From positions 1 through 64,000 of IMG/VR virus record IMGVR_UViG_3300020385_000006: DNA of 64,000 nucleotides; one strand, written 5' to 3'. The position numbers and the translations under genes are program-made. Origin of the DNA: a virus. The notes under the pieces were generated by a model, which saw only the letters and a list, made by a program, of their open reading frames with translations, was not told the origin of the DNA and made no database searches. Positions 9,887 to 46,148 of the stretch are shown one piece after another. How positions within the stretch are numbered: position 1 is the first letter of the stretch; every line of letters begins with the position of its first letter.

Positions 9887-10438
9887 TCATGAATCCAAAT
9901 GATTTTTAACTTTATTCCAATATGCAACTGTTGCTGGTTTGTAGATACCTTTTGGTCCACCATTCCAACATCTTGCAATTTCTTCAGGTGTTACTAAATT
10001 ATAGTAATCTCGATAAATGTTAAACATTTCTATAGATCTTTGTCTACACCATCGGTCTTTGTATTCATATCTTTTTTCGGAACCTTGACGTTTAAGGATC
10101 CTATTAACATCTCGTACCATTGTGCGTCGTATTTGTAAAGCCCCAACAGCATCTTCTTCAACACAGTAAGCATCGTCATTTCCTCCACTTTCTATTTGTA
10201 TTAATGCATTAATAATTCTATCATCTGGTTCTTGGTTAAAATGATATCTAGGACGTTCTAAATCATTTATGATTGATTTTAAACTATCCATTTGATATTG
10301 ATAATATATCTTATCTCGTATAATTTGATTTTCTAAATCAAGTATTTGATCTTCATAACTTATTAATCCTAATGCTGCTGGGCATGCTAATAATATTGTG
10401 ATCATACAAATTTTAATCTCGCAAGGTAACTTTTTCAT
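9887..10438 (-). CDS. lytic transglycosylase with signal anchor
   Basis: 183 residues. The N-terminal hydrophobic segment (about 10-26) is a signal peptide or anchor, followed by a coiled region. The SLT fold starts near residue 75: NALIQIESGGNDDA carries the catalytic Glu, then VGALQIRRTMVRDV, and IARCWNGGPKG with ATVAYWNKVKNHL near the end match the later SLT motifs. It would cut peptidoglycan glycan strands during lysis or entry. Its ATG overlaps the ClpS-like gene upstream. Confidence 0.85.
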   Translation of the reverse strand: MKKLPCEIKICMITILLACPAALGLISYEDQILDLENQIIRDKIYYQYQMDSLKSIINDLERPRYHFNQEPDDRIINALIQIESGGNDDAYCVEEDAVGALQIRRTMVRDVNRILKRQGSEKRYEYKDRWCRQRSIEMFNIYRDYYNLVTPEEIARCWNGGPKGIYKPATVAYWNKVKNHLDS

Positions 10439-11206: not shown

Positions 11207-11638
11207 TTACCACTTTCTACAAGACCAATATCCTGCAGTTGTACGATCTTTTTTCTGGTCACACTTATGTCGTGCTCTAAATGATTTTCTGGCACCTGGA
11301 TTATCTTTTTTGATAACCATACCTTTCTGGCCAAAGTTAACTTTTTTAACGTTACCTGTCTTAGGATCTTTAACATATACCTTAAACTTTTTAACATCGC
11401 CTTGCATAGGTTTACCTAACTTAACTTTACGTCCTTGGTACTCTGCTTCTTGGAATATTACAGGTTCATCATGTTCTAATATTTCTAATCCTAATGCTTC
11501 ATTTCTAAATAACACAGTCTCTGATACTTTAACACATTTGTCTTTACCATCTTCGGTACCTGCATATCGGTATCCTTTCCAACATGCTTTACCATCAGCG
11601 CCTTTTACTTTTTCACCTAATATATCTTTTAGTTTCAT
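11207..11638 (-). CDS. conserved phage protein with MKLKDIL N-terminus
   Basis: 143 residues. The C-terminal part (KKVNFGQKGMVIKK, RKSFRARHKC, YWSCRKW) is a Cys/basic module that I have seen in many marine phage proteins and is often virion-linked. The N-terminus MKLKDILGE is shared with the gene at 11856-12047 and looks like a T4-type capsid targeting sequence ending in a possible prohead-protease site (ILGE). Its start overlaps the membrane protein gene upstream. Confidence 0.65.
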   Translation of the reverse strand: MKLKDILGEKVKGADGKACWKGYRYAGTEDGKDKCVKVSETVLFRNEALGLEILEHDEPVIFQEAEYQGRKVKLGKPMQGDVKKFKVYVKDPKTGNVKKVNFGQKGMVIKKDNPGARKSFRARHKCDQKKDRTTAGYWSCRKW

Positions 11639-11856
11639 TTTTTAGCTCCTGCAAATTTTTCTAGGCCAGCTATACCAAAACATCCTAACACTACAAGTGT
11701 GAATGAATCATATATGAATTCATTGATAATTAGATCTTTACCTACGTACCCGGTAACTAAGTCTAACACGGCGAATACTACCATTACTAGGAATGCAATA
11801 AAACCTACCACATTCTTTTCATTCCAATCGTTATTGTCTTTAAATATATTCCACAT
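11635..11856 (-). CDS. small two-helix membrane protein, holin candidate
   Basis: 73 residues with two hydrophobic segments at about 16-38 and 48-66, charged ends and a Lys-rich tail (FAGAKK). This is the size and layout of class II holins, and a lytic transglycosylase lies 1.2 kb downstream, but many unrelated small phage proteins look the same. It overlaps both neighbours by one to four bases. Confidence 0.6.
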   Translation of the reverse strand: MWNIFKDNNDWNEKNVVGFIAFLVMVVFAVLDLVTGYVGKDLIINEFIYDSFTLVVLGCFGIAGLEKFAGAKK

Positions 11857-12551: not shown

Positions 12552-12893
12552 TTAGAATGCTTCCATAACAATCTCGTCAATTGCATCTTGAACTTCTTTT
12601 CTTGTAGCTTCCATAGTCATCATAATATTGGCCTGGAATCGCTTAGCTTCCTCATTGTTATTGAAGATAACTAATGTAGGCACGACTACTATTTTATATT
12701 CACTAGCCCATCTTGAATCCGCAGTTATATCCACTCTTTGAGTTTCACAATCCGTTAGTTTGCTTAGCCATGTGACATCATTTGTTTTATTGAAACTAGC
12801 GTTAAATTCTACTACTACCATACCTTCTGGAAAGTCTTGGCTCAATGCAAACGTGGACACGAATAGCAATATTATTAGTAATAACTTTTTCAT
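12552..12893 (-). CDS. secreted thioredoxin-fold protein without CxxC
   Basis: 113 residues. Residues 1-18 (MKKLLLIILLFVSTFALS) are a signal peptide, so the protein acts in the periplasm. The rest follows the thioredoxin order: a strand VVVEFNASF, a helix where CxxC is normally found, then VDITADSRWASEYKI and VVPTLVIFNN with the cis-Pro. The redox Cys pair is missing (NASFNKTND); only one Cys is left. It is probably a binding or chaperone-like relative and not a reductase. Confidence 0.7.
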   Translation of the reverse strand: MKKLLLIILLFVSTFALSQDFPEGMVVVEFNASFNKTNDVTWLSKLTDCETQRVDITADSRWASEYKIVVVPTLVIFNNNEEAKRFQANIMMTMEATRKEVQDAIDEIVMEAF

Positions 12894-12901
12894 AATGATT
12901 C

Positions 12902-13186
12902 CTATTTTAAATTATCAATTTTATCTTCCATTCGAATCATCTGCTCTTTGATCTCCTTCACATCCTCTTGGGTGGTCATGATAGTTTGTCGTATCAATTG
13001 ATCTTTCATATCATATTCCATACGAGTAATTTCTGGAGCAGATGGTAATGGAAGGGCTTTGGCTTCTTCAATATCTGCCTGTAATGCAAACCACATACCA
13101 ACTACAGTTGCAATACCTACTGCAATACCTGCTAACGTCTTTATACTTATTTGAAACGACGTATCTTCATTTAATTCTTTAGCCAT
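12902..13186 (-). CDS. membrane-anchored coiled-coil protein
   Basis: 94 residues. One membrane segment at about 17-37 (TLAGIAVGIATVVGMWFAL) is followed by a Pro-rich turn (ALPLPSAP) and a charged coiled coil at about 55-94. This layout is common in small proteins of T4-like marine phages and could be a spanin-like or virion protein. It directly follows the outer-membrane barrel gene. Confidence 0.6.
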   Translation of the reverse strand: MAKELNEDTSFQISIKTLAGIAVGIATVVGMWFALQADIEEAKALPLPSAPEITRMEYDMKDQLIRQTIMTTQEDVKEIKEQMIRMEDKIDNLK

Positions 13187-13195
13187 GATTATCTC

Positions 13196-14233
13196 CTAAA
13201 ATATTACGTAATTGACACCTACGCTAAAGTTGTGCCAATCCCTGTTCCAGTATTTATTATATCTTCCTTCTACAAATACTCCTAAACTCTTATTAAATCT
13301 ATACCCAAATATAAGTCCTGCGGAATAATCTAACCATTGACCATTATTATATTTATGATATGAATATTCGCTATCTGTATCAATATGATAAGGCATTACG
13401 TTACCCCATGAATGAAACCAGAAGTCTTTTGTAAAATGATAATAATCAAAACCTAACACAGCAGAATACTCTACTGTATTAGATAATGCATTTCTTTGAT
13501 CTTCAACGTAATCGTTAATCACTTCTGGTACAACAACTTCTTCCCATACTTCTTGACTATTAGCAACCACATTACCATCCGGATCTAAATAAGTCCCATC
13601 TAATGTTATATTGTATCCCTCTTGAAGTGCCAGATATGTATAATGTAAACTTCCATTGGCCAACACCCAGTCTACCAGGGGGTCAAATCCATATGGTTCA
13701 GCAAGTCTTTGCACCGCCCCTATATTGAACGATAACTTACCTAATTCGCCTATTTGAAACCTGAATCTTTCAGAGGCTTCAAAGTATTTTATATCGGCAA
13801 ATCCATCTTCCAAGTACTCAACCTTACTCACCCATTTATCTGCAACATACCTTACAAAGTGATGCTGATTGATATAATCTATACCTAATCGTCTCACAAA
13901 ATCAGTTTCAAACAAATATTCAAAACCATCTACCCGGCCTAATGTTGCTGCATCTGAATAAGATCTTTCTGTACCATTATAGAATGTATTCGCTCTATTC
14001 TCATATCCAAATCGTTTTATCTTTCTGATACCAATTGATATACTGTAATCGAAAGGTGTTTCAATAACTTGCTCTTCTAATGTTCCAGACGTAACTGACC
14101 ATACTTGAGCATCTCCTAATGATGTACCACCATTAACTGCTGCATAAAATGTTGAATATTTAAATATATTCTTAACGCCTTGCGCATTACTTAGTAACGG
14201 TAAACATAAAAATAATACTAATAACTTTCTCAT
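13196..14233 (-). CDS. predicted outer-membrane beta-barrel protein
   Basis: 345 residues. Residues 1-17 (MRKLLVLFLCLPLLSNA) are a signal peptide. The mature part alternates short amphipathic strands and turns, and ends VGVNYVIF with the C-terminal Phe typical of barrel proteins inserted by the BAM complex. It therefore should sit in the host outer membrane. It overlaps the T9SS cargo gene upstream (ATGA), so the two are co-translated. A phage-coded outer-membrane protein suggests receptor masking, superinfection exclusion or a partner for the T9SS protein. No exact family is recognised. Confidence 0.7.
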   Translation of the reverse strand: MRKLLVLFLCLPLLSNAQGVKNIFKYSTFYAAVNGGTSLGDAQVWSVTSGTLEEQVIETPFDYSISIGIRKIKRFGYENRANTFYNGTERSYSDAATLGRVDGFEYLFETDFVRRLGIDYINQHHFVRYVADKWVSKVEYLEDGFADIKYFEASERFRFQIGELGKLSFNIGAVQRLAEPYGFDPLVDWVLANGSLHYTYLALQEGYNITLDGTYLDPDGNVVANSQEVWEEVVVPEVINDYVEDQRNALSNTVEYSAVLGFDYYHFTKDFWFHSWGNVMPYHIDTDSEYSYHKYNNGQWLDYSAGLIFGYRFNKSLGVFVEGRYNKYWNRDWHNFSVGVNYVIF

Positions 14234-17175
14234 TGCTTAATTACCTTTTTATTGATTGATTTGCCATCATATGTTATAACAAAATTATATAAACCTGATG
14301 CCAATTGAGATACATCTAATTGATTTATTTTTGATTTTAATTGATCTTCTTTAACTCGTATTACAAGTTTACCAGTTATATCATATACATCTATACTTGC
14401 TTGAACATTTGTTGCAATGGTAATCATATCATTAGTTGGATTAGGATATATAATAATATCAGCTTGTTCTAACAATTCATCAATATCTAATCCATTTTGC
14501 TCTTGGCAATAATCATATAAGCCTTCACATTTGATATCCCATTCGAGATCACAACAAGAAGGATCGACATTTATTACCCATGCATAACAAGAATCATTTA
14601 ACCAATATGGATCACCTGGTCCCATCCCTGCTCCACCACAACCTGCATCATATAGACAGCTACCATTATCTTGATTTGCTATAGGATCATAGTTATAAGC
14701 TTCACTATCCATACAACCTTCTAATACATCGACACAAGAAAAGTCTTCTGTGTTTGCTTCTGAATCATAATTTAATGCCGATGGATCAGTACAACCTAAA
14801 ACAACATCAACGCATGAAAAGTCTTCTGTGTTAGCTAAAGGATCAAAATTAAATGCTGAAGGATCTGTACAGCCATATAATACTGGAATGCAAGATTCGT
14901 TATCTGTATTAGCTACTGGGTCATAATTAAATGCTGTTGTGTCAGTACAACCAAATATATAAGGAATGCAGTTATCACTTGGCATATTAGCTAATTCATT
15001 ATAATTCCACATTGTTGGATCCATACAACCATAAACTTCAGGTATACATGATTCATCATCGACATTTGCATCTACATTATAATTAAATGCCATTGGATTT
15101 GTACAACCATAAATAGGATAAATACAATTATCATTATTTACATTTGCTGTAGGATCAAAATTTAAAGCCAATTCATCTATACATCCAAAATATAAACATG
15201 ATTCATTATCATTTAAGTTAGCTAATGGCTGGTAATTCCATGCTTCTTCATCCGTACAGCCTATAATCCATGGTTGACAAGAACCATCATCAGTGTTAGC
15301 TGGGTTCATATAATTATACCCATAAAGAGAAGGATCGGTACATCCATACACTACTGGTTCACATGCTATAATATCTGGGTCATATGTGTTAGCTTCAGGA
15401 TCATAATTAAACATTACAATGTCTGGATTAGATAAATTAGTAGGGTAAATACATCCATATACTATAGGCTCGCAAATATCACCACAATAAGGCATTGCTG
15501 AATAAACGTTCCAAAATGGTGGTTGGAATGGCTGTAATGCACCCGCTCCATTGCCTTCAAAAGGATTAACCCCTCCTGACAATAATTCAACTCCATCATC
15601 TCTTACAATTGTAAAAGAATTATGCATTGTTTGAAATAAAACTTCTTGAATTGGTTGCTGAGGAGCTTGTACTTGAAAATAATATACTTCAACAGACTTA
15701 TCAGATTCTAATACTATGTCCCATGATTGTTCTTCTATGCCAGGCCCCAATGTATATATCCATTCTTGTTCTCCGTGGAATACAGCTAAATAAGAATCGC
15801 CCCAACCGTCAGATGCATCATCTTCAATTGTAATAGTGTAATTGCAAGGAGATATAAGTTCTAATGAATTAGCATTGGGATCATAATTAAATTGACTATC
15901 ATCAGTACATCCATATATTTTTTCTGTTTGGCAATCTTCCAGAACATTGACATTAGCTGCTAAATCATATTCTAAGAAGTTATTATCCATACAACCATAG
16001 ATAGGTGGTATTTCACAATAAGGTAACCAAATAGGACCTGAATAAGTAGCACTACCAAATCCTGCTTCTGGTAAAGTCCATACTGTGTCTAATCCATCAC
16101 CACATGGTTCTGTATCTGCTAATATTACGAAATTACCATCTGTTCCACCATTATACAAAGATCCTTGCATTCCATCACCGTAGTCATCACTTAATATAAG
16201 TTCAACACCTGAAGTAGGAACACATAGTTCATATGGTATAGTTGTATTAGCTTGCGAATAATCATATTCTCCTCCTACAACATTGGCTACTGGTTGACCG
16301 TTACTAATATCTGTAAGTATCCATCCTGTTTCTCCTGGAAATTGATCCAATGTAATTTGAAGTATCATTTTTGCTTCACCATCAGAACATACTCCGTTAA
16401 CACAAGAACCATTATCAGCTTCTGCTAAAGGATTATAATTAGGCGATCCCGGATCAGTACATCCAAATATAGGAAATTCACATGTAAAGTTTTCTACATT
16501 AGCTTCCGGATCGAAGTTTAATGCTGTATCATTTGTACAACCTTCTACAACTGGTAGGCATGAACCATCGTCTGTATTGGCAGTATCATTAAAATTAAAA
16601 GCAGAAGAGTCTGTACAACCTAAAATTTCTGCATTAGGATCGGGACAATCACCTTCATCCCAATTAAATTCTTCACAATCAAAATAAACAGGATTTCCTA
16701 GATAAGAATAAATTCCATTGTCACAATAACCATCACCAATCCAACTAGTAATATTAGTTACATCAGAACCATTACAATCAAGTAAAGGATATTGACAAGA
16801 ATCATTATCAACATTTGCATTTTCATTATAATTTAATGCTAAACTATCTGTACAACCTTCTATGTCTACAGAACTACAGTCTCCCAATAAAAATGAACCT
16901 GCACCACCTTGTAAATCTCCTATGGCCCAAGAAATTTCTCCTGGGTAAGATCCGCCACCTACTTCAATATTATTACATTCATTTAAATTAACACATATTG
17001 TATCAACTGCTTCTGCTCCGCTTGCAAGTGTTATGGAATTATAACCTACTGTTAAAGTGTTACCGTTCCATCCATCGCCATATGAATCGTACATATTAAC
17101 TACTAAATTGCTACAGTCTTGACCATAGATAGTAGTTGTAAATAATAATATAAATAATAAAAATAATTTTCTCAT
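14230..17175 (-). CDS. T9SS-targeted Cys-rich repeat surface protein
   Basis: 981 residues. A signal peptide (1-18, ending TTTIYGQ) is followed by beta-sandwich segments with DSYGDGWNG, DDYGDGMQG and DASDGWGDS motifs, one Notch-type (LNR-like) segment with WIGDGYCD and DEGDCPD near residue 160, and 16 copies of a GCTD-x2-AxNYDPxANxDDxSC repeat. A late block has the CCDLEWDIKC motif. Residues about 901-981 are a type A T9SS sorting domain (IIIYPNPTNDMITI, VYDITGKLV, LASGLYNFVI). Such proteins are exported by the type IX system of Bacteroidota and shown on the surface. Acidic repeats probably bind calcium. The gene is inside the phage operon, overlapping genes on both sides. Confidence 0.85.
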   Translation of the reverse strand: MRKLFLLFILLFTTTIYGQDCSNLVVNMYDSYGDGWNGNTLTVGYNSITLASGAEAVDTICVNLNECNNIEVGGGSYPGEISWAIGDLQGGAGSFLLGDCSSVDIEGCTDSLALNYNENANVDNDSCQYPLLDCNGSDVTNITSWIGDGYCDNGIYSYLGNPVYFDCEEFNWDEGDCPDPNAEILGCTDSSAFNFNDTANTDDGSCLPVVEGCTNDTALNFDPEANVENFTCEFPIFGCTDPGSPNYNPLAEADNGSCVNGVCSDGEAKMILQITLDQFPGETGWILTDISNGQPVANVVGGEYDYSQANTTIPYELCVPTSGVELILSDDYGDGMQGSLYNGGTDGNFVILADTEPCGDGLDTVWTLPEAGFGSATYSGPIWLPYCEIPPIYGCMDNNFLEYDLAANVNVLEDCQTEKIYGCTDDSQFNYDPNANSLELISPCNYTITIEDDASDGWGDSYLAVFHGEQEWIYTLGPGIEEQSWDIVLESDKSVEVYYFQVQAPQQPIQEVLFQTMHNSFTIVRDDGVELLSGGVNPFEGNGAGALQPFQPPFWNVYSAMPYCGDICEPIVYGCIYPTNLSNPDIVMFNYDPEANTYDPDIIACEPVVYGCTDPSLYGYNYMNPANTDDGSCQPWIIGCTDEEAWNYQPLANLNDNESCLYFGCIDELALNFDPTANVNNDNCIYPIYGCTNPMAFNYNVDANVDDESCIPEVYGCMDPTMWNYNELANMPSDNCIPYIFGCTDTTAFNYDPVANTDNESCIPVLYGCTDPSAFNFDPLANTEDFSCVDVVLGCTDPSALNYDSEANTEDFSCVDVLEGCMDSEAYNYDPIANQDNGSCLYDAGCGGAGMGPGDPYWLNDSCYAWVINVDPSCCDLEWDIKCEGLYDYCQEQNGLDIDELLEQADIIIYPNPTNDMITIATNVQASIDVYDITGKLVIRVKEDQLKSKINQLDVSQLASGLYNFVITYDGKSINKKVIKQ

Positions 17176-17464: not shown

Positions 17465-17854
17465 TTATCCTTTAAATATTTGTTTTTTACCACCAAAGTA
17501 CTCATATGCATGGCCTTCGGCTTTTAATGTTTCATTTATATTATATTGTTTACCGGTTTCATCCTGTATAAAGATCTCTCCAAGTACTCTACCATACTTA
17601 CCTACGCCATGAGACTTTAATCTAAAGTAACCTGATTTAGAACTAACCTTTTCTAATAGCTCTTTGTTACGTTCTTTGGCCGCCAAACCTTTGGCCTTCT
17701 CATCCAAATCTCTTGTTCTGCTTTCCCACGTGTCAATTCCCATATACCGGATTCGTTTCTTAACCCATATATCAAAACCAACATCAATAAGTGCATCGAT
17801 AGTATCGCCGTCAACAACTCTTTCAAGTTTTGCTCTGTAAATATATTTGTCCAT
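17465..17854 (-). CDS. staphylococcal-nuclease-like protein
   Basis: 129 residues. The SNase fold is clear: VVDGDTIDALIDVGF gives the calcium Asp, RIRYMGIDTWESR gives the Arg, Asp and Glu of the active site, and GKYGRVLGE gives the second Arg. All main catalytic residues of thermonuclease are present. There is no signal peptide, so it acts in the cytoplasm or within the virion; it may help host DNA degradation. It is located among structural genes. Confidence 0.85.
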   Translation of the reverse strand: MDKYIYRAKLERVVDGDTIDALIDVGFDIWVKKRIRYMGIDTWESRTRDLDEKAKGLAAKERNKELLEKVSSKSGYFRLKSHGVGKYGRVLGEIFIQDETGKQYNINETLKAEGHAYEYFGGKKQIFKG

Positions 17855-23933: not shown

Positions 23934-24851
23934 TTAAGAATTTCCATTTGCAGTTATATGTTGTAGCTTTGCATCAGTTGATGCAGGATCTTGATCAAAC
24001 CATTTTTCTGTTTTAGTTTTTTTAACTACTGCACGTCCTTCTAATTTATTCCAATCCTGTTCTGGCCGTACATTTAAATTGGTTGACCATGCTCCTTCAA
24101 TAGTTGGAACTTTAACTCCTAGCTCATCGGCCATACTTATAAATGCATTTATATCTTTAGGAAAACATGAACCTCCAAAACCTAATTTTCCATCAGGCCC
24201 AGGGACATTTAAATGAGAATCGCCAATACGTTGATCTGCTGTAAAGCCGGCTAGAGCTTGTTTCCAATTGGCTCCTACTGCATCGCTTACTTGTTTCATT
24301 TCATTCATGATTGAAACTTTACTAGCAAAAAATACATTATTCATATATTTTATCAATTCCGCGGTTATAGTATCTGTCTCTATAATGTAACAATGTTCAA
24401 ATCGTTCGCGAAATAACTTTGCTACACGCTTAGTTAATCGTTTTGCACCACCTAAGATTATACGAGATTGTGTTAAGAAATCTAATTTTGCTGTACGTTC
24501 AGTCAAGAATTCCGGATTAAAGATTATGTTGAGTTTTGGAAATTGTTTTATAAAATTATTAACAGATCCCGGTACCATTGTAGATTTTAAAATGATAACG
24601 TTATTACGATTTTTATTTTTATAAGATATTTCCTTTAAAGCCTTTTCTACTATATCTAAACTTATAGATCCATCTTCTTGCATAGGAGTTGGTACTGCTA
24701 CAAATATACAATCACATTCTAATACTTCTTCAATCGTATTAAGATTACGCTTAGGATCTTTATCATGAATTCGAATCTCATGAGTAGGAGAAAATCCGAA
24801 TGCAACAGAATTACCTACAAATCCATTACCTATAATTCCAATTTTATTCAT
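23934..24851 (-). CDS. UDP-sugar/GDP-mannose 6-dehydrogenase family protein
   Basis: 305 residues. The Rossmann motif GIIGNGFVGNSVAFG opens the protein, FVAVPTPMQEDGSI follows near residue 52, and GFGGSCFPKDINAF near residue 222 holds the catalytic Cys and the Lys. The family oxidises the C6 alcohol of a nucleotide sugar to a uronic acid. It is shorter than usual (about 400 or more); the C-terminal sugar-binding domain is missing or replaced by a charged tail, so its activity is uncertain. First biosynthetic gene at this end of the sugar locus. Confidence 0.8.
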   Translation of the reverse strand: MNKIGIIGNGFVGNSVAFGFSPTHEIRIHDKDPKRNLNTIEEVLECDCIFVAVPTPMQEDGSISLDIVEKALKEISYKNKNRNNVIILKSTMVPGSVNNFIKQFPKLNIIFNPEFLTERTAKLDFLTQSRIILGGAKRLTKRVAKLFRERFEHCYIIETDTITAELIKYMNNVFFASKVSIMNEMKQVSDAVGANWKQALAGFTADQRIGDSHLNVPGPDGKLGFGGSCFPKDINAFISMADELGVKVPTIEGAWSTNLNVRPEQDWNKLEGRAVVKKTKTEKWFDQDPASTDAKLQHITANGNS

Positions 24852-24858
24852 TTGCTTC

Positions 24859-25719
24859 CTAATTATTTTTTAAAAATTCTTCTATATACTCATTTAAGAG
24901 TTCTTTTGGCTCATATCCAACTTCTTGAGTTTTTGATATATCCGCTTTTGTAGTCCATGCTTCACCTAATCGAGCTGGAATATAAGTTGTTTTACATTTA
25001 AACATATCTGCTAGTTCATTTATTGAATGGTTCCTGCTAGTTCCTAAATTATAAATTTCACCTTTATATTCACCTTTGCTAAGACAAATCATACCATTAG
25101 ATATATCAAACACATGCGTAAAGTCTCTTCGTTGATCACCAGTTCCGGTAATTGTCAATGGTTCATTAGCATTATACTGTCTTTCAAATATACCAATAAC
25201 TGTTGCATATGTTCCTTCCCATGGTTGTCTAGGACCGTATACATTGAAAAATCTAGTAGATACTGTAGACATGTTATAAATATCTGAATACATTTTTAAT
25301 ATTTCTTCACCTGACCATTTAGTAAATGCATATGGATTAAGGTGAGGGCCAGCTTCGGCAGAACTACTAGCTGCATATATTATTTTTGCTCCACACCGTT
25401 TTGCTAATTCACATACTTGTACAGTTCCTAATGTATTTGCTTTAAAATATGATACTGGATCTAGAAAACTAGGCTGTATTCTAGACAATCCAGCGAGGTG
25501 GAATATCAAATCAAAATTTAGATTTTGATATTTAATTTTATCTAGATTATTAATATCATCAATAATATACTCAACTCCTTCTTCTTGATAATCACGATTA
25601 CTCGAATTTGAACATAAATTATCAATTACTGTAATATTGTAATTACCTTCTTTCTTAAGAATTTTTACTAGATTAGATCCTACAAATCCTAATCCGCCGG
25701 TGACTAACACGTTTTGCAT
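24859..25719 (-). CDS. NAD-dependent sugar epimerase/dehydratase
   Basis: 286 residues. Extended SDR fold with GGLGFVGSNLVKIL at the start, FHLAGLSRIQ, AASSSAEAG and the YxxxK pair in NPYAFTKWSGEE. Most like UDP-glucose 4-epimerases and related UDP-sugar epimerases. It works on nucleotide sugars made elsewhere in the locus or the host. The usual Ser before the YxxxK motif is present. Confidence 0.8.
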   Translation of the reverse strand: MQNVLVTGGLGFVGSNLVKILKKEGNYNITVIDNLCSNSSNRDYQEEGVEYIIDDINNLDKIKYQNLNFDLIFHLAGLSRIQPSFLDPVSYFKANTLGTVQVCELAKRCGAKIIYAASSSAEAGPHLNPYAFTKWSGEEILKMYSDIYNMSTVSTRFFNVYGPRQPWEGTYATVIGIFERQYNANEPLTITGTGDQRRDFTHVFDISNGMICLSKGEYKGEIYNLGTSRNHSINELADMFKCKTTYIPARLGEAWTTKADISKTQEVGYEPKELLNEYIEEFLKNN

Positions 25720-25730
25720 TTTATTTCCTT

Positions 25731-26954
25731 TTAATTGTTATGTATTAAATTATTTTCATATGTTTCTAAACTATGAATTGTTACTTGTAAATTTTCTATT
25801 TCAAAATGAGTTGGTTCAATTAATATTGCTTCCCATAGTTGTTCATCATTGGCAAGTATTTCTGATAATGTTTGTATAATTCTAAAATCGTTATTGCTGA
25901 ATCGATTACCATCTATTTCAACTAAGATATCATTCTGTTTTTCATTATCAAAAGGTTTTATTTTATCTAACAGATCATAATGGGTATTTATTTGTTCTCG
26001 CTTTATATATGAATTATAATCACAATCAACATATATTGTACTACACCATGGTTCTAGCGTCTCTAACAACTGATCATTACAATTCTTAATTATGAATCCT
26101 ATATCATACTTAGGAGGAACAATAGGTTTCATTAACGCATCATGTTTACAAAAATGTCCCCATTTACGAATAAACTCTCTAGTTGATTTTTGATTTTGTT
26201 TTAACCATTCATCCGTTTCTCTGTTCTTCATAAACACTTCTCCATCCGGATTTCTTTTAGCGCCATCCGCAAATCGGCTACCTCTACATGTCATATGATA
26301 TACACAACCTTCCCATGTTTGAATAAATTTAATTCCATTTAATTGAAACCGGTTAAATATATCTGTATCTTCTTTTGATTGTGGAGCAAATATAGGATCG
26401 TGGCCGCCTATCTTTTGAAAGTCCTTTTTCCAAAATGCCCATGGGGCAAATATACCTTCCGTTGTTTTATTTACTCGATCAGCTTTTGTGTCACGCATAT
26501 ACCGAAGTAATTTATCTTCATCAAATTCTTCAGGCTCTATACCAAAATCAACAAGTATCTTTTCAGGACCGTCCGGATGTAAAGGCGGTTCGATTCTAGT
26601 TAAAGATACAATAATATTTTCTTTAAGATGCCATTCAATTGAATCAATAGCTCCTGGACATAAATACATATCTGCATGATATATCATACATATGTCATGT
26701 GAAGCAACTTCATTAACTAATCTATCATATAAAATGGTATGTCCTAATCTAGTCGGTCCTTCATTTCGTATCGCCTTAAAATTAGAATCTGTTTGCATCA
26801 TTTCTTGACACCAATCCCATGTACCATCATTTGAAAAATCATCTGCTACACATATTTCTACTGTATGATTGCCTTGGTTTTTTCTTATAGAATCGTAAGA
26901 CCATTTAAGATACTTAAGATTATTTCTACCTGGTTGTATTAAACTAATTTTCAT
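25731..26954 (-). CDS. family 2 glycosyltransferase with extra C-terminal domain
   Basis: 407 residues. The GT-A start SLIQPGRNNLKYLKWS, ICVADDFSNDGTWDW and IYHADMYLCPGAI (DxD type) identify a GT2 enzyme in about the first 270 residues. The last 130 residues are extra and not recognised. It overlaps the GT gene upstream (ATGA). Acceptor and donor are unknown. Confidence 0.8.
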   Translation of the reverse strand: MKISLIQPGRNNLKYLKWSYDSIRKNQGNHTVEICVADDFSNDGTWDWCQEMMQTDSNFKAIRNEGPTRLGHTILYDRLVNEVASHDICMIYHADMYLCPGAIDSIEWHLKENIIVSLTRIEPPLHPDGPEKILVDFGIEPEEFDEDKLLRYMRDTKADRVNKTTEGIFAPWAFWKKDFQKIGGHDPIFAPQSKEDTDIFNRFQLNGIKFIQTWEGCVYHMTCRGSRFADGAKRNPDGEVFMKNRETDEWLKQNQKSTREFIRKWGHFCKHDALMKPIVPPKYDIGFIIKNCNDQLLETLEPWCSTIYVDCDYNSYIKREQINTHYDLLDKIKPFDNEKQNDILVEIDGNRFSNNDFRIIQTLSEILANDEQLWEAILIEPTHFEIENLQVTIHSLETYENNLIHNN

Positions 26955-27829
26955 TGTAACCTTGTTTTTACGTTTGTACCATGTATCGGCTTAACAAATG
27001 TAGATTCATCATCTTCTGGTAATCTCCCCCATTTCTCAATAAATTTTCTTGTACTTTCTTGTTCAATACGTGCTAAGCGGTCCGGACGTTTATTGATATT
27101 ATCATCAGGAAATCTAGATGCTCTTGACGAAAAATGCCATTGTACTGATTTAGTAATCATTTTAAATTCATATCCTTCTAATTGCATTCGTATAAATAAA
27201 TCTTTGTCTTCCCAATATGCTGGTGCAAATAATGGATCATTTCCTCCTATCCATTCATAATCAGCTTTACGACAAAAGAATCCGGCACCGCCTGCCTTTC
27301 TTACAATTGAATCGTTTTCAGCTGAAAATTGAGTTGCCCATTCATCAAAATACTTACTATTAAAATTATGATGGAATTCTCCAAATTCATCTATTGGTAC
27401 AAATACTGTACCAGGTCTATACCATGGATCATTTGGAAATATTTTTGGTTGTATTCTAAATGACGATGCTATAAGTCTAACTCCTGGTTCTATATCATCG
27501 TATAATTTTAACAACTCAATGTCTTGGTTAGGTGCTATCCACATATCAGCATGAATTATATTTACAAATTCAGTATTTGATTGATGTACACAAATATCCA
27601 TACCTCCGCCAATTCCGCGTGGCACTTTATTCGATTCTATTATAGGTGTAAGATTTAATTTAGCTTTATTTTCTTCTAACCATTCATTAGTACCATCTGT
27701 ACAATTCTCGGCATGTACGATTATAGGCATATCATTGTAATATGCATTCTGCCTTACTGAGTCAATTGCCAATCTAAGATAAGATAGATTATTAAATGAT
27801 GATATACATGTTGTTATTTTATGTTTCAT
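26951..27829 (-). CDS. family 2 glycosyltransferase
   Basis: 292 residues. TTCISSFNNLSYLRLAIDSV, VHAENCTDGTNEW and NIIHADMWIAP give the GT-A nucleotide-sugar fold and a metal-binding site. It is a relative of the next gene downstream. The ATG is four bases after the -7 box of a promoter match, so the mRNA may have no leader. Confidence 0.8.
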   Translation of the reverse strand: MKHKITTCISSFNNLSYLRLAIDSVRQNAYYNDMPIIVHAENCTDGTNEWLEENKAKLNLTPIIESNKVPRGIGGGMDICVHQSNTEFVNIIHADMWIAPNQDIELLKLYDDIEPGVRLIASSFRIQPKIFPNDPWYRPGTVFVPIDEFGEFHHNFNSKYFDEWATQFSAENDSIVRKAGGAGFFCRKADYEWIGGNDPLFAPAYWEDKDLFIRMQLEGYEFKMITKSVQWHFSSRASRFPDDNINKRPDRLARIEQESTRKFIEKWGRLPEDDESTFVKPIHGTNVKTRLQ

Positions 27830-27832
27830 ACT

Positions 27833-27864
27833 TCAATATAACTAATTTTTTACAGACTTCCTAA
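27833..27864 (-). promoter_or_regulatory. variant promoter, TTAG-N20-TATATTGA
   Basis: Minus-strand TTAGGAAGTCTG, 20-bp spacer, -7 box TATATTGA. The box ends four bases before the ATG at 27829. Confidence 0.5.
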
Positions 27865-28847
27865 TTTTTAGTTAATTTTATCACATTATTTAATAATTTT
27901 AAATCATTATCGACCATTTTCTGTACTAGCATATTAAATGATGTTTTAGGAGACCAATCCATTTGTGTCTTAGCCTTTGTATAATCACCTCTTAAAACAT
28001 CTACTTCTGCAGGTCTCATAAATCTAGGATCTTGTTTAATATATGGTGCCCAATTATCAATACCTATATATTTAAAAGCAACATCTAAAAATTCTCTAAT
28101 AGAATGAGTTTCTCCCGTTGCTACCACATAATCATCAGCTACATCCTGTTGTAACATTAACCACATTACTTCTACATAATCAGGTGCATAGCCCCAATCG
28201 CGTTTAGCTTCTAAATTACCTAATGTAATATGATCTACCAATCCTAATTTAATGCGCGCCACACCATCAGAAATTTTTCTGGTTACAAATTCAATACCTC
28301 TACGTTCAGATTCATGATTAAATAAAATACCCGAGCATGCAAACATGTTATATGATTCTCTGTAATTTTTAGTTATCCAATGGCCATATAATTTAGCTAC
28401 ACCGTATGGACTCCTAGGATAGAATGGCGTTGATTCTTTAGCTGGATTTTCTACCATACGACCAAACATTTCTGATGAACTTGCTTGGTAAAATCTAATC
28501 TTAGGATTGTATTCACGTATTGCTTCTAATATTCGCAGTACACCTATCCCTGTTACTTCGCTAGTATGTTCTGGTGTATTCCAACTTTCGCCTACAAATG
28601 ATTGAGCTGCTAAATTATATACTTCATCGGGATCACATTCTTTTAAACATCTTAACAATGAATTCTGGTCTGTCAAATCACCATTTAATATTGTTATATC
28701 ATCTTTCAAATGTTTAGTATTCACATCATTTACATTTGATGAACGACGTTCCATTCCGTATACTTTATATCCTTTAGTTAATAATAAATCTGCTAGATGG
28801 CTTCCATCCATTCCATTAATACCTGTTATAAATGCTGTTTTTGTCAT
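27861..28847 (-). CDS. gmd: GDP-mannose 4,6-dehydratase
   Basis: 328 residues. GINGMDGSHLADLLL, the RRSS word at 34-37, AAQSFVGESW, ASSSEMFG, SPYGVAKLYGHW (YxxxK), NHESERRGIEFVTRK and LGNLEAKRDWGYAPDYVE are the typical motifs of Gmd. It converts GDP-mannose to GDP-4-keto-6-deoxymannose, the precursor of fucose, perosamine and rhamnose sugars. A DegT aminotransferase 4 kb upstream could convert this product to GDP-perosamine. Slightly shorter than cellular Gmd (about 345-370). Confidence 0.92.
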   Translation of the reverse strand: MTKTAFITGINGMDGSHLADLLLTKGYKVYGMERRSSNVNDVNTKHLKDDITILNGDLTDQNSLLRCLKECDPDEVYNLAAQSFVGESWNTPEHTSEVTGIGVLRILEAIREYNPKIRFYQASSSEMFGRMVENPAKESTPFYPRSPYGVAKLYGHWITKNYRESYNMFACSGILFNHESERRGIEFVTRKISDGVARIKLGLVDHITLGNLEAKRDWGYAPDYVEVMWLMLQQDVADDYVVATGETHSIREFLDVAFKYIGIDNWAPYIKQDPRFMRPAEVDVLRGDYTKAKTQMDWSPKTSFNMLVQKMVDNDLKLLNNVIKLTKN

Positions 28848-29827
28848 ATTGTATAGTCCTTATATTCGTAAAATTTACCTTTATTTTGTATTAAACATGA
28901 TATGTTATGTTGTGATAATTGTTTAAACTTTTTAAAATTATTATTTTTGTCTGGTGTGAATGAATGCGGATTGGTTTCATTTGCTATATATAATCTTTTC
29001 CTAGGATGGCGCCTCGCATGAACATGTAATATATTTTTACAAATAAATTGCTTGAATTGATCACCGAGTAATTTTTGCGCCATGATAGCCAAACCTTCAT
29101 CATCATTATATATTAAACATGGCGGAATATTAATTCCTGACTTGATTAAATCAGCTGATAATACTAAACATGCTCCGCTAATTTTTGGATATGGTATATA
29201 GCTAATCTCAAATGATGATTTAGCTTCAGAATTAATTTTATTCATCTTTTCTATAGACATTACCGACTTTGCTTGATTTGGGTTTAAATGACTATCAGGT
29301 CCATCTTTAAACTCATGATCTATAAATTTAGGATGTACTAACGGATCCCAAGAATTATCCCACATCTTACGATCTGCAAAGCTTAAAATATATCGATGTA
29401 TATTCTGCGTATCTGTATAATTAGCTAATGTTTCAATTACTTCAAATGCTTCTTTTGGAAATAAGCTATCTGTTTCTCCCCACATCACATAATCTACATG
29501 TTTACAGTAATTGTAATTTAAATCACGACGATAATCAGCATGGTAATAAACTCCATCTATAGTATCATGATATTTAATATTCGTATTGTATTTATGTAAT
29601 CGAGCTACTTGTGTTTTAAACTTTGAAATTAATTCTGATTTAGATATTTGTTCTACATCAATTTTTTCTATATGTTCAGATGTATTAAAACAAATATCAA
29701 GAATAACATTTTCATGATTATCAACGTCGGACATTAGATTTAAAATACCATCCACATATGTTTTGAAAATTTCAATTTCAAAATACATGACATGTACTCC
29801 AATTACATATTGTTTATTCAACTGCAT
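28844..29827 (-). CDS. GT-A type glycosyltransferase-like protein
   Basis: 327 residues from the start chosen at 29827 (MQLNKQYVIG), where GGAGAG precedes the ATG and the overlap with the upstream stop is short; a start four codons earlier is possible. YVMWGETDSLFPKEAFEV gives a DxD-like site, YNDDEGLAIMAQ a second acidic motif and HVHARRHPRKR a basic end. No exact family. It overlaps gmd by four bases. Confidence 0.6.
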   Translation of the reverse strand: MQLNKQYVIGVHVMYFEIEIFKTYVDGILNLMSDVDNHENVILDICFNTSEHIEKIDVEQISKSELISKFKTQVARLHKYNTNIKYHDTIDGVYYHADYRRDLNYNYCKHVDYVMWGETDSLFPKEAFEVIETLANYTDTQNIHRYILSFADRKMWDNSWDPLVHPKFIDHEFKDGPDSHLNPNQAKSVMSIEKMNKINSEAKSSFEISYIPYPKISGACLVLSADLIKSGINIPPCLIYNDDEGLAIMAQKLLGDQFKQFICKNILHVHARRHPRKRLYIANETNPHSFTPDKNNNFKKFKQLSQHNISCLIQNKGKFYEYKDYTI

Positions 29828-30561
29828 AATGCTCTCCATGTTTTTTCCATAAAATAATCTCTTTTTTCGTCCGGCATGCCGTTAAATTGGTAAATACCTT
29901 TGAAACACTTAGCAAATGTCAAATCATCGTCTAATATTTCAAATCGTGGCAAATCTACTGCACAAAATTCATACGGCAGATATGTTAACGACTCATCTGA
30001 AGCATGAGTGAGATGATTAATAATTGGCTGATCTGTTCCTACTCCATATGTTGTCTGCATATATTGTATTTGGTCTTTATGTTCCAAATAAAAATCTAAA
30101 TATCCTTTCCATATATGTTTTTGATTTTTATTAGTTATCTGAAATCCTCCACAGAAGTATTTGAAAATATCAAATGTCTTTCCATTAAACATATGTGTTG
30201 AATAATTTTCCATACTACGGCAAATCCAGTCCATGCTCCCGAAAGCTCTTGCAACTGTATATTTATCATCAGTCATATCAAAGAAATTTGGTGTATCCGG
30301 ATGAATTATACAATCAGCATCTGTTATTAATACTTGATCATATTCAATGCCACTATGATCTAAAATATCCATAGCATAATACCGTTGCCATGTTATTTTC
30401 ATTTCATCTGAAGAACATGCTAACTTATCCATGACAACCAACTCGGCATTATTTTTTTTACACCATTGTTTCCAACTATCAATGCCATAACGATAACATT
30501 GACTTCTAGTTTCTTCGCCCGGAATTGTTACCGCGGCCATAAATACTACATTTTTACTCAT
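29818..30561 (-). CDS. GT8-like glycosyltransferase
   Basis: 247 residues. VLITDADCIIHPDTPNFF carries the DxD motif in a GT8-like context; GVGTDQPIINHL and FNGMPDEKRDYF follow. It has the same layout as the next upstream gene (30554-31339), which suggests a tandem duplication. It is likely to transfer a hexose onto a phage-directed glycan. Confidence 0.7.
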   Translation of the reverse strand: MSKNVVFMAAVTIPGEETRSQCYRYGIDSWKQWCKKNNAELVVMDKLACSSDEMKITWQRYYAMDILDHSGIEYDQVLITDADCIIHPDTPNFFDMTDDKYTVARAFGSMDWICRSMENYSTHMFNGKTFDIFKYFCGGFQITNKNQKHIWKGYLDFYLEHKDQIQYMQTTYGVGTDQPIINHLTHASDESLTYLPYEFCAVDLPRFEILDDDLTFAKCFKGIYQFNGMPDEKRDYFMEKTWRALCS

Positions 30562-31339
30562 AATTATGTTTTATTAAATCCCATGTCTGTTTCATTAAGG
30601 GATATCGTTGAGTTCTATCAAATCCACTAAATTTCCAAATATATCCATACTTTATAAAAAATGGAGTGGTATTAGTTTTCAATTGCCAGTTATACGAAAA
30701 CCAATCAAATCGGTTTAAATGATTTAACATAAAAGCCGGAGATAATCCTAAATGAATATCAATATCATGGATTTGTAATAAAAAGTTATATATTGGTTGA
30801 TCAGTACCTCTTTTAATCGTATCCTGACATTCCATTATTGTATTAAAATTATCATCATGGTATTTTTCTAATATATCTAGGAAAGGTTTATGTGATTTAT
30901 CAAATACTTGGAATCCGCAATCTATATATTTAGTTATATCAAAATCAAAATTATCGAAAACAGTTTTATATCCTTGTACACACTCATAGACCCATTTTAA
31001 ATTTTCTAATGACCTATATATAGTAACCTTATCATTAGGACATTCTTTAAAGAAGTTAGGTGCATCCCATTTAATCATAGTACTACCATCTACTACACAT
31101 ATTTTATCAAAATTAATATTCGCAGTTTCTAGACAAGGAAATACATCAAACCAACGAGTCCAAGTAGTTCCATTTTTTTCACTGAGAGGGGTATTATATT
31201 CGTAAAATATAATATCATTTTTCTTGCACCAATATTCCCAACATTTTTTCGAATATTGGAAATATTCAAAACCTCCATGTTTTTTATTAAGCAAGGCATT
31301 GGAACTTTTAACTCCGACCCAAAATAATACATTTTTCAT
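30554..31339 (-). CDS. GT8-like glycosyltransferase, paralogue
   Basis: 261 residues. KICVVDGSTMIKWDAPNFF is in the place of the DxD motif (DGS here), CGFQVF and GTDQPIYNFL match the paralogue at 29818. The DxD motif is altered, so metal binding may differ or activity may be lost. It overlaps the downstream paralogue by eight bases. Confidence 0.7.
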   Translation of the reverse strand: MKNVLFWVGVKSSNALLNKKHGGFEYFQYSKKCWEYWCKKNDIIFYEYNTPLSEKNGTTWTRWFDVFPCLETANINFDKICVVDGSTMIKWDAPNFFKECPNDKVTIYRSLENLKWVYECVQGYKTVFDNFDFDITKYIDCGFQVFDKSHKPFLDILEKYHDDNFNTIMECQDTIKRGTDQPIYNFLLQIHDIDIHLGLSPAFMLNHLNRFDWFSYNWQLKTNTTPFFIKYGYIWKFSGFDRTQRYPLMKQTWDLIKHNYE

Positions 31340-31342
31340 ATT

Positions 31343-32200
31343 CTACCTTCCTAAATATTTTGTTACTACCTTGACCCAATTATAATAATAATCATCAGCT
31401 CTAACTGCTCCGCGGCCACCATGATGTATAAATGGCTTACCATTAATAAATCCTTCATCGCCATGGCTTATATTTAATGCATGTTGTGCTTTTAAAGATC
31501 GGTCTTCTGTGCTATTTTTACAAATATAAAATGGTTGGTTAGTTTCGCGTGCCCATAACGAGATCAAACCATATGTATCTTTATAATGACAATTAGGATA
31601 TAGATCACCCTCTTCTTTAAAATAGTTATTTTCTATAGTAGACCGTTCCATCAATCCAAATTGAGGTGTAAGTGCTTGATCTATATCATGTCTCCATCGA
31701 TATGATACAAATACATTTTCTTTAAGCAATGGCAATAATTCATCTACCCATGTATTTAAAAATACACAATCATGTTCAACATGACATATATATTTGCCAT
31801 TACCTTGTTTAACTCCAATTGTCATACCTGTTGATTGTAACCAACTATTAAAGCCTAATTCTCTTCTATCATATTTTGAGTAGCCATCCCAACCATAATT
31901 ATCAATAAAATATTGTTGAGAATATTTTCCATGCATACCATCTGTTCTTGCAGGAACTATAGATCCATCATCGTCATTAACTTGATTAACTCCTTTTATA
32001 ACTTTCACATGTGGTTCATCTTTAAACATGTCATGCAACTTTATTAGGTCAGGACTATCATCTGAGTTATTACCATTATTGACAACATAATATGTATAAG
32101 GATACTTAACATACTTTTTAATGCTCTCATGGATTAGCTTTACATAATCTAATCGTTTATAAGTAACGGTTACAAAATCTATACTATCAATCATTTTCAT
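31343..32200 (-). CDS. family 2 glycosyltransferase-like protein
   Basis: 285 residues from the start chosen at 32200 (MKMIDSIDFVTVTYKR), preceded by GGGAG; the longer frame to 32254 overlaps the methyltransferase gene. The fold begins with DFVTVTYKRLDYVKLI, has VVNNGNNSDDSPD and HVEHDCVFLNTWVDELLP (a DxD-like site). The C-terminus is rich in His and Gly (FIHHGGRGAV). Confidence 0.7.
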   Translation of the reverse strand: MKMIDSIDFVTVTYKRLDYVKLIHESIKKYVKYPYTYYVVNNGNNSDDSPDLIKLHDMFKDEPHVKVIKGVNQVNDDDGSIVPARTDGMHGKYSQQYFIDNYGWDGYSKYDRRELGFNSWLQSTGMTIGVKQGNGKYICHVEHDCVFLNTWVDELLPLLKENVFVSYRWRHDIDQALTPQFGLMERSTIENNYFKEEGDLYPNCHYKDTYGLISLWARETNQPFYICKNSTEDRSLKAQHALNISHGDEGFINGKPFIHHGGRGAVRADDYYYNWVKVVTKYLGR

Positions 32201-32801
32201 AAATTTTATCTCCCATGGGGTCAGATTGTTTCCATGTAGCAAATACATTTTCACCTTCCACTGGTATATCTGCTTTACGACCTTCTAAATTTAATGAAAT
32301 AGGGATTTCCCACGTCTCTGCTTGAGAATAATCCCATATATCACCATGTGATACTCTCCTAGGCGTCCATGGATGTACTGCTGTCAATCCAACCTTTTCT
32401 AATAATTTAGTTAACGATCTTTTATCATAAATTAAATAATGACATTCATATTCATATGATTGGCCGCCCATGACTAGACCTAATATATTTTCTATACGTT
32501 TTCCACATTTCTGATACACCTCAATTGCCTTTTCAAAATCTGGCGTTGCTATACGTAACATACCTCCTGGTTTCAGAACTCGAACCCATTCCTTTAATAC
32601 TTGTTCTATTTCATCACGCTTCACATGTTCTATTACGTGTGATGCATAAACTATATCAAATGTATTATCTGGAAAATTTAATATATCTATTCCGGAAATA
32701 TGGTCTACTCCAGGCATATCTCTTCCATCTAAATTCTCCCATGGAGATGGAAATATAGTACTACCACATCCAATATTTAAATATCTCACTTCTTTTGTCA
32801 T
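32187..32801 (-). CDS. SAM-dependent methyltransferase
   Basis: 204 residues. Motif I YLNIGCGST, DILNFPDNTFDIVYASHV and VLKPGGMLRIATPDFE are the class I (Methyltransf_11) signatures. In this setting it probably methylates a sugar or lipid carrier, though a small-molecule or protein target cannot be excluded. Overlaps both neighbouring genes. Confidence 0.8.
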   Translation of the reverse strand: MTKEVRYLNIGCGSTIFPSPWENLDGRDMPGVDHISGIDILNFPDNTFDIVYASHVIEHVKRDEIEQVLKEWVRVLKPGGMLRIATPDFEKAIEVYQKCGKRIENILGLVMGGQSYEYECHYLIYDKRSLTKLLEKVGLTAVHPWTPRRVSHGDIWDYSQAETWEIPISLNLEGRKADIPVEGENVFATWKQSDPMGDKIYEND

Positions 32802-33949
32802 TTAAAATCCTTAATTGTTTTAATAATATACGATACATCTTCATCACTTAATGATTGATGTAATGGAATACATAATGTATGATTAGCCGCATATTCTGTA
32901 CCTGGTAGTTTATTACCAGATGTCTGAAAATATTTTACCCAATGCAATGGATAATATCTAAATGTAGTATATATACCATTTTTTCGTAAATATTTAGCTA
33001 ATCTATCTCTATGTTCTGTCTGTATATGATACATATAATATGAACTGGTTACACTACGTGGCAAATTATTTGGCACATCTAACCAATCTATATCTTTAAA
33101 CATTTCTGTATATATATCATGTATTAATTTACGACGGTCTAATTGCGAATCAATTTTTTTTAATTGTTCAATGCCTATCGCTGCTTGTATATCATTTGTA
33201 ATACATCTTCTTCCTGGCACTGATATATCATATTCCCACCATTTCTGATCTACACTGTTAGAAAATCCACTATTTGTTTTTAAACCTAAATATGTGGCAT
33301 GTGTCAATCGTTGTATATCTTTTTTATCATTACAATAAATCATACCGCCATCACCCATTACTAATTGTTTCATAGAATCAAATGACCATAAACCAATATC
33401 ACCAAATGTACCAGTTGATTTACCGTAAACTTTACTAAATGGGCTATTAGCATTATCCTCTATTAATTTGATATTACGTTGACTACAAAGGTTTGTTATA
33501 CGTTCGATATCACATGGTACGCCGGCGAAATGTAACACTATAACAGCTTTTGTTTTATCAGTAATTTTACTTTCGATATGATCAAGCTCTACATTCAATG
33601 TCCTAGAGTTTACATCACAAAATACCGGCGTTGCATTTTTTGCAACAATTGCATTAGCTGCTCCTATAAAACTAACAGATGGTAATATTACTTCATCACC
33701 TTCATTTACATATAAGTCTATTGATTGGAATAATCCTTCTGTGCAACTTGATATTGTTAACAAATTCTCTGGCGATGCAGGTGTACATGCAACGCCATGA
33801 TAACAATTAGTTATTAATTTTCTGGCAAAGTCTTCTTTAAACTGATCTGTTTTAGGGCCTTTGCCTAACCAATTTGAATCAAATACTTCTTTTATCGCAT
33901 TTAATTCTTCATTGCCTAAAGATGGTTGATATATATTAATTGGTTTCAT
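32798..33949 (-). CDS. DegT/DnrJ/EryC1/StrS aminotransferase
   Basis: 383 residues, normal for the family. VILPSVSFIGAANAIV, LIEDNANSPFS (the PLP-contacting Asp), and WSFDSMKQLVMGDGGMI, where the Lys should form the Schiff base, are all present; GRRCITNDIQAAIGIEQL matches the family dimer region. It transfers an amino group to a keto sugar. With Gmd in the same locus the likely product is GDP-perosamine; this is inference. It is the first gene after the promoter match at 33957-33987. Confidence 0.88.
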   Translation of the reverse strand: MKPINIYQPSLGNEELNAIKEVFDSNWLGKGPKTDQFKEDFARKLITNCYHGVACTPASPENLLTISSCTEGLFQSIDLYVNEGDEVILPSVSFIGAANAIVAKNATPVFCDVNSRTLNVELDHIESKITDKTKAVIVLHFAGVPCDIERITNLCSQRNIKLIEDNANSPFSKVYGKSTGTFGDIGLWSFDSMKQLVMGDGGMIYCNDKKDIQRLTHATYLGLKTNSGFSNSVDQKWWEYDISVPGRRCITNDIQAAIGIEQLKKIDSQLDRRKLIHDIYTEMFKDIDWLDVPNNLPRSVTSSYYMYHIQTEHRDRLAKYLRKNGIYTTFRYYPLHWVKYFQTSGNKLPGTEYAANHTLCIPLHQSLSDEDVSYIIKTIKDFK

Positions 33950-33956
33950 ATTATAC

Positions 33957-33987
33957 TTAATATAACAAATTATTTTTAATTATCAAA
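33957..33987 (-). promoter_or_regulatory. promoter match, TTTG-N19-TATATTAA
   Basis: Minus-strand TTTGATAATTAAAAAT, 19-bp spacer, -7 box TATATTAA; the box ends eight bases before the ATG at 33949. It overlaps no other gene. Confidence 0.5.
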
Positions 33988-33988
33988 A

Positions 33989-34213
33989 TTAATCTTCTGA
34001 AAAAACTTCTATACATAATACTTTCTCATCATTAATGAATAGCCACCGGCCATCTCTTAATTTAAATTTAGTAAACTGACCTTGTTTTATTGAATCAGAT
34101 TGTATGCCAGTAAACGTACGTTTAGTGCCGTCTACAAAATGAATAATTTGTGTTACAAATGTTCCTACATCATTTACTGTGGATTGTAGATCTTTTATTT
34201 TATTTGGGCTCAT
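33989..34213 (-). CDS. hypothetical small phage protein
   Basis: 74 residues, beta-rich pattern (TQIIHFVDGTKRTFTGI, FKLRDGRWLFINDEKVL), like a small SH3-type barrel. It overlaps the oxidoreductase gene upstream by four bases and ends just before the promoter for the aminotransferase operon. Function unknown. Confidence 0.55.
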   Translation of the reverse strand: MSPNKIKDLQSTVNDVGTFVTQIIHFVDGTKRTFTGIQSDSIKQGQFTKFKLRDGRWLFINDEKVLCIEVFSED

Positions 34214-34875
34214 ATTGTTTTATTGTTTTTTTGTTCAGATTGTAACCTGTTAATTATTTTATTACACATCAATGATATCGTTTTATTATATTCATAATCT
34301 GGAGTACCATATAACACTTGGTCTATCATATCAGATAACGCGTCATTACTATTTTCTGTGTTAGTAAAATCTATGTCATTAATTTTATGTATTCTATTAT
34401 CTGATACGTTGTATGTAAACTTTATATCTTCGTAAGGATATTTCCAATACGGCCATAGTAAATATAAGTCGTGATATAGCAAATCATATAACGTGTTATC
34501 ACTTATCTTATTCCATCTAACGGTTATAGGTTTAGTTAAATTCTTGATATGCTTTTTTTCTGTTCTATAATTAAATACATCATCTACATATAATTTAACG
34601 CCATATTCATCTGCTAAATCAAATAATTCTTTTGATTGTTCATATGTAAGAGTCAATGGCTTTTCACAGAATACATTTTTTCTATGCATGATACATTGCT
34701 TGACTATATCATAATGTGTATTATTAGGCGTGGCAACAAATGCCCAATCAATAGAATCTAATTTAGATATATACTCATCTTTACTAGTACATATAAATAC
34801 TATATTACATATAGATTTTAATTTACGTTCAAGTATCTTACCCCAATATCCATGACCTAATAAACCTACTCGCAT
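34210..34875 (-). CDS. Gfo/Idh/MocA-like oxidoreductase, short
   Basis: 221 residues. GLLGHGYWGKILERKL is the Rossmann motif, FVATPNNTHYDIV and FCEKPLTLT (EKP) are the family hallmarks. It is much shorter than usual (about 330-350); the C-terminal beta-sheet domain is reduced. Members oxidise or reduce sugars with NAD(P). It overlaps the FAD oxidoreductase gene upstream by ten bases. Confidence 0.75.
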   Translation of the reverse strand: MRVGLLGHGYWGKILERKLKSICNIVFICTSKDEYISKLDSIDWAFVATPNNTHYDIVKQCIMHRKNVFCEKPLTLTYEQSKELFDLADEYGVKLYVDDVFNYRTEKKHIKNLTKPITVRWNKISDNTLYDLLYHDLYLLWPYWKYPYEDIKFTYNVSDNRIHKINDIDFTNTENSNDALSDMIDQVLYGTPDYEYNKTISLMCNKIINRLQSEQKNNKTI

Positions 34876-37867: not shown

Positions 37868-37880
37868 TAACTATACTTTT

Positions 37881-44501: not shown

Positions 44502-46148
<1,647 letters not shown>

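Follow-up and report, generated by a model that had tools for sequence, protein, structure and literature searches.

Why should a bacteriophage encode a protein addressed to a secretion system of its host's cell envelope? The question is raised by a gene in the stretch of DNA analysed here (the window), a 64-kb part of the 127,430-base IMG/VR virus record IMGVR_UViG_3300020385_000006. The gene (positions 14230–17175, minus strand, ATG start) encodes a protein of 981 amino acids that ends in a sorting domain of the type IX secretion system (T9SS). Its sequence and modelled fold mark this protein as a genuine type A cargo of the T9SS in a Bacteroidota host. It belongs to a conserved cassette of four genes, the others encoding an outer-membrane protein (OMP), a 94-residue membrane and coiled-coil protein, and a periplasmic protein with a thioredoxin fold. 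The explanation that we consider best as a whole is that of a T9SS cargo, produced from a four-gene envelope cassette, that shields the surface of the infected cell, and we give it about an even chance of being right in all its parts.

The type A sorting domain, proposed in a preliminary description of this DNA, is recognised by two independent profile families. Residues 909–981 (14233–14451, minus strand) match TIGR04183 of NCBIfam with 46.7 bits against a cut-off of 23 (E = 2.3e-12), and PF18962 of Pfam matches with 55.3 bits against a cut-off of 27 (E = 8.5e-15), about twice the curated cut-off in both cases. A lack of any significant match, which the preliminary description had allowed for, did not occur; the match begins at residue 909 and not at 895 as first given. 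TIGR04183 also matches all 33 diverse cargo relatives scanned, and none of 145 relatives lacks the P-x-P motif. AlphaFold predicts a seven-strand Ig-like sandwich at residues 907–980, with a predicted local distance difference test (pLDDT) score of ~50–77 over the domain. The top Foldseek match of this model is 8glk_D, the T9SS substrate NucA bound to the translocon (TM-score 0.79); its best matches also include 8gl6_D (RemA-CTD in complex with SprA), mirolase and the crystallised cargo domain 5hfs, and a sequence search of the PDB retrieves the same class of T9SS cargo domains. The full-length AlphaFold2 model, with a mean pLDDT of 41, is usable only for the sorting domain and two beta regions. 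A shortened C-terminus, a tail of ~45 residues (VTDxLGRP...LLFFIYxDGxxExK), is seen at L005:7461-10205, L013:7461-10205, L162:4779-6965, L277:4420-6486 and L280:8667-10907; this may be a T9SS signal reduced to its minimum, or what is left of one after decay.

Ahead of the sorting domain the cargo consists, from the N-terminus, of a signal peptide that is clear by inspection (MRKLFLLFILLFTTTIYGQ), beta and Notch-like Cys modules, 16 GCTD repeats, and a Cys-rich PYWLNDxCYAWVI domain at residues ~843–905. The number of repeats, as initially described, is borne out by a count of GC[T/M/I]x motifs (n = 16), whose spacing is mostly 25–28 residues, with most neighbours 26 apart. The DNA motif GGNTGYACNGAY, which matches the repeats, occurs nine times in the window, every time within the cargo gene, against an expectation of 0.16. 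A crude signal-peptide pattern is passed by all 121 complete cargo relatives. Large GCTD-repeat proteins that have no sorting domain are encoded upstream of the cassette in other phages (1,091–1,592 residues, incomplete at the locus edge: L031:3-3356, L032:1-3372, L036:3-4781, L037:3-3278 and L040:3-3320); none was found in the window phage's own genome.

How tightly is the cargo gene tied to its neighbours? Searching with the cargo yielded 14 viral contigs, with the OMP gene visible in 11; the remaining stretches end too early. An alignment search with the OMP found at least 528 encoding stretches, the best 80 of which form our first set of loci. In all 76 of these with enough sequence the cargo gene adjoins that of the OMP: 64 times upstream with an overlap of exactly 4 bp, four times upstream with an overlap of 9–10 bp, and eight times downstream within 637–750 bp. 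Clustering of neighbouring genes placed the 94-residue protein in 80 of the 80 loci and the thioredoxin-fold protein in 79. Two more searches with divergent OMPs gave a wider set of 175 distinct OMPs from viral contigs. A T9SS-tagged open reading frame lies within 3 kb of the OMP in 145 of these, so the cargo–OMP pair that the preliminary description suggested looking for is indeed found in other phage genomes, and nearly all of the remaining 30 loci are cut off by contig ends. Genes for the 94-residue and thioredoxin-like proteins are each close to the OMP in 150 of the 175 loci, with insertions or altered order in some lineages. The OMP is present in every locus by design of the search, while the recurrence of the other three genes is independent of it.

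The genes that flank the cassette differ between phages: in some they encode an M15 peptidase together with holins, in others a terminase with a portal (phrog_6681 and phrog_6547), a 2,300-residue protein, or ribonucleotide reductase; the portal of the terminase–portal phages is of another family than the window's phrog_213. Because the surroundings vary in this way, the cassette probably moves between phages as a unit. It is plausible, at somewhat less than an even chance, that it is a widespread, horizontally shared module dedicated to exploiting the host T9SS, with the phage contributing the cargo, its outer-membrane partner and the periplasmic helpers, and the host only the translocon. Two pairs of loci share contigs (L033 with L037, and L226 with L263; 3300030116_004105 and 3300030390_001081), and some phages may thus have two OMP copies.

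All parts of the cassette are under purifying selection. The sorting domain has a pooled ratio of nonsynonymous to synonymous substitution rates (dN/dS) of 0.31, and the domain preceding it one of 0.12; the ratio is 0.14 for the OMP, 0.135 for the 94-residue protein and 0.19 for the thioredoxin-like protein. These values are for pairs picked by the dS of the OMP, since using all pairs inflates the estimate through saturation. Among ~85,000 genomes, the OMP was found on only five contigs. Three of them have the gene for a tagged cargo next to that of the OMP and resemble phage contigs that were binned with metagenome-assembled genomes (MAGs), while two end at the OMP. It was found in none of 147 other Flavobacteriales genomes, and the Cys-rich domain before the sorting domain in none of 195. 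The sorting domain is the sole general host-type signal; the bodies are phage-specific.

The OMP (13196–14233, minus strand; 345 residues with a signal peptide) is predicted to be an outer-membrane beta-barrel. Its start overlaps the stop of the cargo gene by 4 bp (14230–14233), an overlap that was noted at the outset and is kept in relatives. The model, of moderate quality (mean pLDDT 66), is a barrel of ~12 long strands with a helical insert; compared with the PDB it gives 148 matches at E ≤ 0.001, of which those listed are outer-membrane barrels, with low TM-scores. Neither Pfam nor NCBIfam gave a match to the OMP, including to PorV or PorP/SprF. Assignment to either of these with hhalign was rejected at a probability of ~0.1%, a figure uninformative on very distant kinship, as the PorV–PorP control pair was equally negative.

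The 94-residue protein (12902–13186, minus strand) has one transmembrane helix, probably with the N-terminus inside, and a charged coiled-coil-like tail. The fourth product (12552–12893, minus strand; 113 residues) has a signal peptide by inspection and, as judged by sequence, a thioredoxin fold (profile match 1.2e-7); PF00085 matches 13 of 15 members of its family at E ≤ 0.01, the window member falling just under the cut-off. In 150 relatives the mature part lacks the CxxC redox site, and the few CxxC found in the family sit at or before the signal-peptide cleavage site. The phage operon of the preliminary description stands in so far as it joins cargo and OMP, but these two further conserved downstream genes were not mentioned there. 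It included a small basic gene, whose 4-bp overlap with the cargo gene (17172–17175) is real. This gene, with a product of 95 residues, stands outside the conserved unit; no relative of it turned up among the loci first collected. A staphylococcal-nuclease-like gene adjoins or lies near the cassette in several phages (17465–17854 in the window; L113:2277-2630; L111:17917-18255).

What is established about type A cargo leads us to propose that Sec would carry the protein over the inner membrane, and that the host SprA/PorV translocon would recognise its C-terminal domain and move it through the outer membrane. Thereafter the rod of repeats, long and rich in disulfides, would be displayed at the surface or released from it. 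We think it very probable that the cargo is exported by the host T9SS and displayed in this way. The phage OMP, seated in the outer membrane, would probably be a docking or anchoring partner of the cargo, and the 94-residue protein and the redox-dead thioredoxin fold would work further in, at the inner membrane and within the periplasm. Taken together, the four products would thus occupy each layer from the inner membrane through periplasm and outer membrane to the cell surface. Lysis genes are near the cassette in many phages, which makes late expression probable.

The purpose of such display is a more tentative matter. We favour, as the likeliest single answer but one that could well be wrong, shielding of receptors or superinfection exclusion: the surface of the infected cell would be remodelled and covered such that competing phages and released progeny fail to adsorb. 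A phage profits when re-adsorption is prevented close to the time of lysis. Moreover, susceptibility to phages is influenced in Flavobacterium by features of the surface that depend on the T9SS: in F. columnare, gld and spr mutants are phage resistant (PMC9233685), and such features therefore matter for phage entry. Several observations weigh against our interpretation. The C-terminal domain is shortened in at least three intact relatives (L162, L277 and L280), which retain the repeat protein all the same, and also in L005 and L013. The same GCTD repeats occur in untagged phage proteins, which may be virion proteins. As the OMP has no similarity to PorV or PorP/SprF, its partnership with the cargo is argued from gene linkage. 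Finally, neither the cargo nor the OMP gene was matched among 50,697 sequenced phage records.

The strongest rival is assistance with lysis, on account of the lysis genes that neighbour the cassette in many relatives. Here, the cassette would weaken or bridge the envelope at the end of infection, with the 94-residue protein acting like an inner-membrane spanin, the OMP as its outer partner, and the cargo loosening the surface layer or capsule. An M15-type peptidase is beside the cassette in 55 of the 80 first-set loci, and holin-like genes are also near. Within 4 kb in the window are a holin-like membrane protein of family F6 (11635–11856, minus strand; 73 residues), which is often near the cassette elsewhere as an associated rather than core gene, and a probable lysozyme or lytic transglycosylase with weak SLT and lysozyme matches (9887–10438, minus strand), which suggests a lysis module downstream of the cassette in this phage. 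The topology of the 94-residue protein is spanin-like by inspection, and one member of its family has a weak Rz-like match. However, the profile matches of this protein are weak and scattered, the cassette of other lineages adjoins ribonucleotide reductase, exonuclease or structural genes, and no known spanin pathway needs a long repeat protein exported by the T9SS. We regard a role in lysis as unlikely, though it fares better than the alternatives that follow.

Rather less probable is that the displayed protein serves adhesion or attachment to particles, altering the behaviour of infected cells, for example through aggregation or sticking to marine particles. Repeat number varies among cargo relatives (7–23 in the first set and up to ~28 overall), as is typical of surface adhesins, and the Notch-like and GCTD modules look, by inspection, like calcium-binding extracellular modules; but Pfam and NCBIfam scans of the cargo recognised no adhesin domain outside the sorting domain. 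A slightly poorer case can be made for jamming of secretion, where the phage protein, made in abundance, would compete for SprA with the host's own cargo, depleting surface receptors and gliding proteins and thereby blocking entry. That no part other than the sorting domain was recognised as host-like would suit a decoy, as would the resistance of the gld and spr mutants, but a decoy needs neither a large, conserved, Cys-rich body (dN/dS 0.12) nor a dedicated OMP.

We consider it improbable that the protein is a virion adhesin, carried on the particle or acquired by particles released through a coated cell. The untagged GCTD-repeat proteins upstream of the cassette in other phages, and the fibre-like and structural genes close by, are in line with this proposal, but a signal peptide and a functional-looking T9SS domain would take the protein out of the cytoplasm, where virions are assembled, and the recognised tail-fibre gene of the window phage's genome is located elsewhere. 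T9SS domains being normally cellular, an assembly chimera or stray host DNA, as the preliminary description had entertained, might be suspected, but is extremely improbable, because the same arrangement recurs in more than 100 viral contigs, G+C is uniform across the region at 32–36%, and all substantial genes of the region are on the minus strand, co-directional with the phage genome.

The phage itself is contractile-tailed, as its tail sheath and other hallmarks indicate: structural genes for a major head protein, portal and tail-fibre proteins, and replication genes for DNA polymerase, UvsX, a DnaB-type helicase, clamp loader and ribonucleotide reductase. Scans for promoters and terminators gave results at chance level. 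Two routes to the host were tried and set aside. The best match of a phage nucleotide-sugar epimerase is 62% for Bacteroidota versus 58% for Pseudomonadota, too near to decide, and MAG bins conflict (three T9SS-rich genomes, one archaeal and one Maricaulis bin). The cassette or OMP contigs in the archaeal (Nitrosopelagicus) and Maricaulis MAGs, L113 and L114, are probably misbinned phage DNA. One MAG bears a related phage contig, and in the taxonomic family of that MAG each of the 13 genomes sampled has the PorV family. Elsewhere in the window are an island of sugar-nucleotide and glycosyltransferase genes (23934–41758: UDP-glucose dehydrogenase, two epimerases, an aminotransferase and several glycosyltransferases), whose products may alter virions or the surface of the host, a phage-encoded GroEL chaperonin (44502–46127; phrog_5725, E = 2e-169), and a GTP cyclohydrolase-like gene (54385–55044), possibly part of a pathway for modified guanine in DNA.

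With these results, phage cargo for the T9SS would no longer be a one-off curiosity; it would be a strategy conserved in a large phage group that has no sequenced isolate in the collection searched. Many such phages of marine bacteria probably give the infected cell a new surface decoration. If this is true, the T9SS, a hallmark of the Bacteroidota, is regularly used by phages to change the surface of infected cells. The cassette could serve as a host-phylum marker for uncultivated phages, and the four gene families defined here have a joint function that can be tested.

The conserved, dedicated cassette appears to be new, while phage T9SS cargo and the idea of exclusion have already been published; we found no description of an OMP-linked cassette in the literature, with most subscription journals and preprints outside our coverage. 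The protein resembles the type A cargo of Bacteroidota (TIGR04183; RemA, NucA, mirolase) in its C-terminal sorting domain, in the matching predicted fold and, by inspection, in its signal peptide, but its body is phage-specific. SprF/PorP is an outer-membrane barrel encoded beside its T9SS cargo, as is the OMP here; however, in our case the barrel is encoded beside a type A cargo, and no kinship of the OMP with PorP or PorV could be detected. Phage T5 places an exclusion protein, Llp, at the host surface, but Llp is a small lipoprotein, in contrast to the large T9SS-tagged protein described here, for which exclusion is only proposed. In crAss-like phages, BACON repeats and T9SS-tagged proteins near phage genes were reported in 2019 (PMC6949934); these are gut phages with BACON domains, and the part of that report considered here describes no OMP cassette. 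The closest precedent is Cryophage (Bellas et al. 2020, PMC7468147), in which genes with type A sorting domains are variable accessories and the same use of the host system, superinfection exclusion included, was proposed. Its three variable genes, which encode two glycoside-active enzymes and one PA14 protein, belong to one phage group, whereas here a single repeat protein, with no recognised enzyme domain, occurs in many phages together with a phage-specific OMP, as part of a conserved cassette of four genes.

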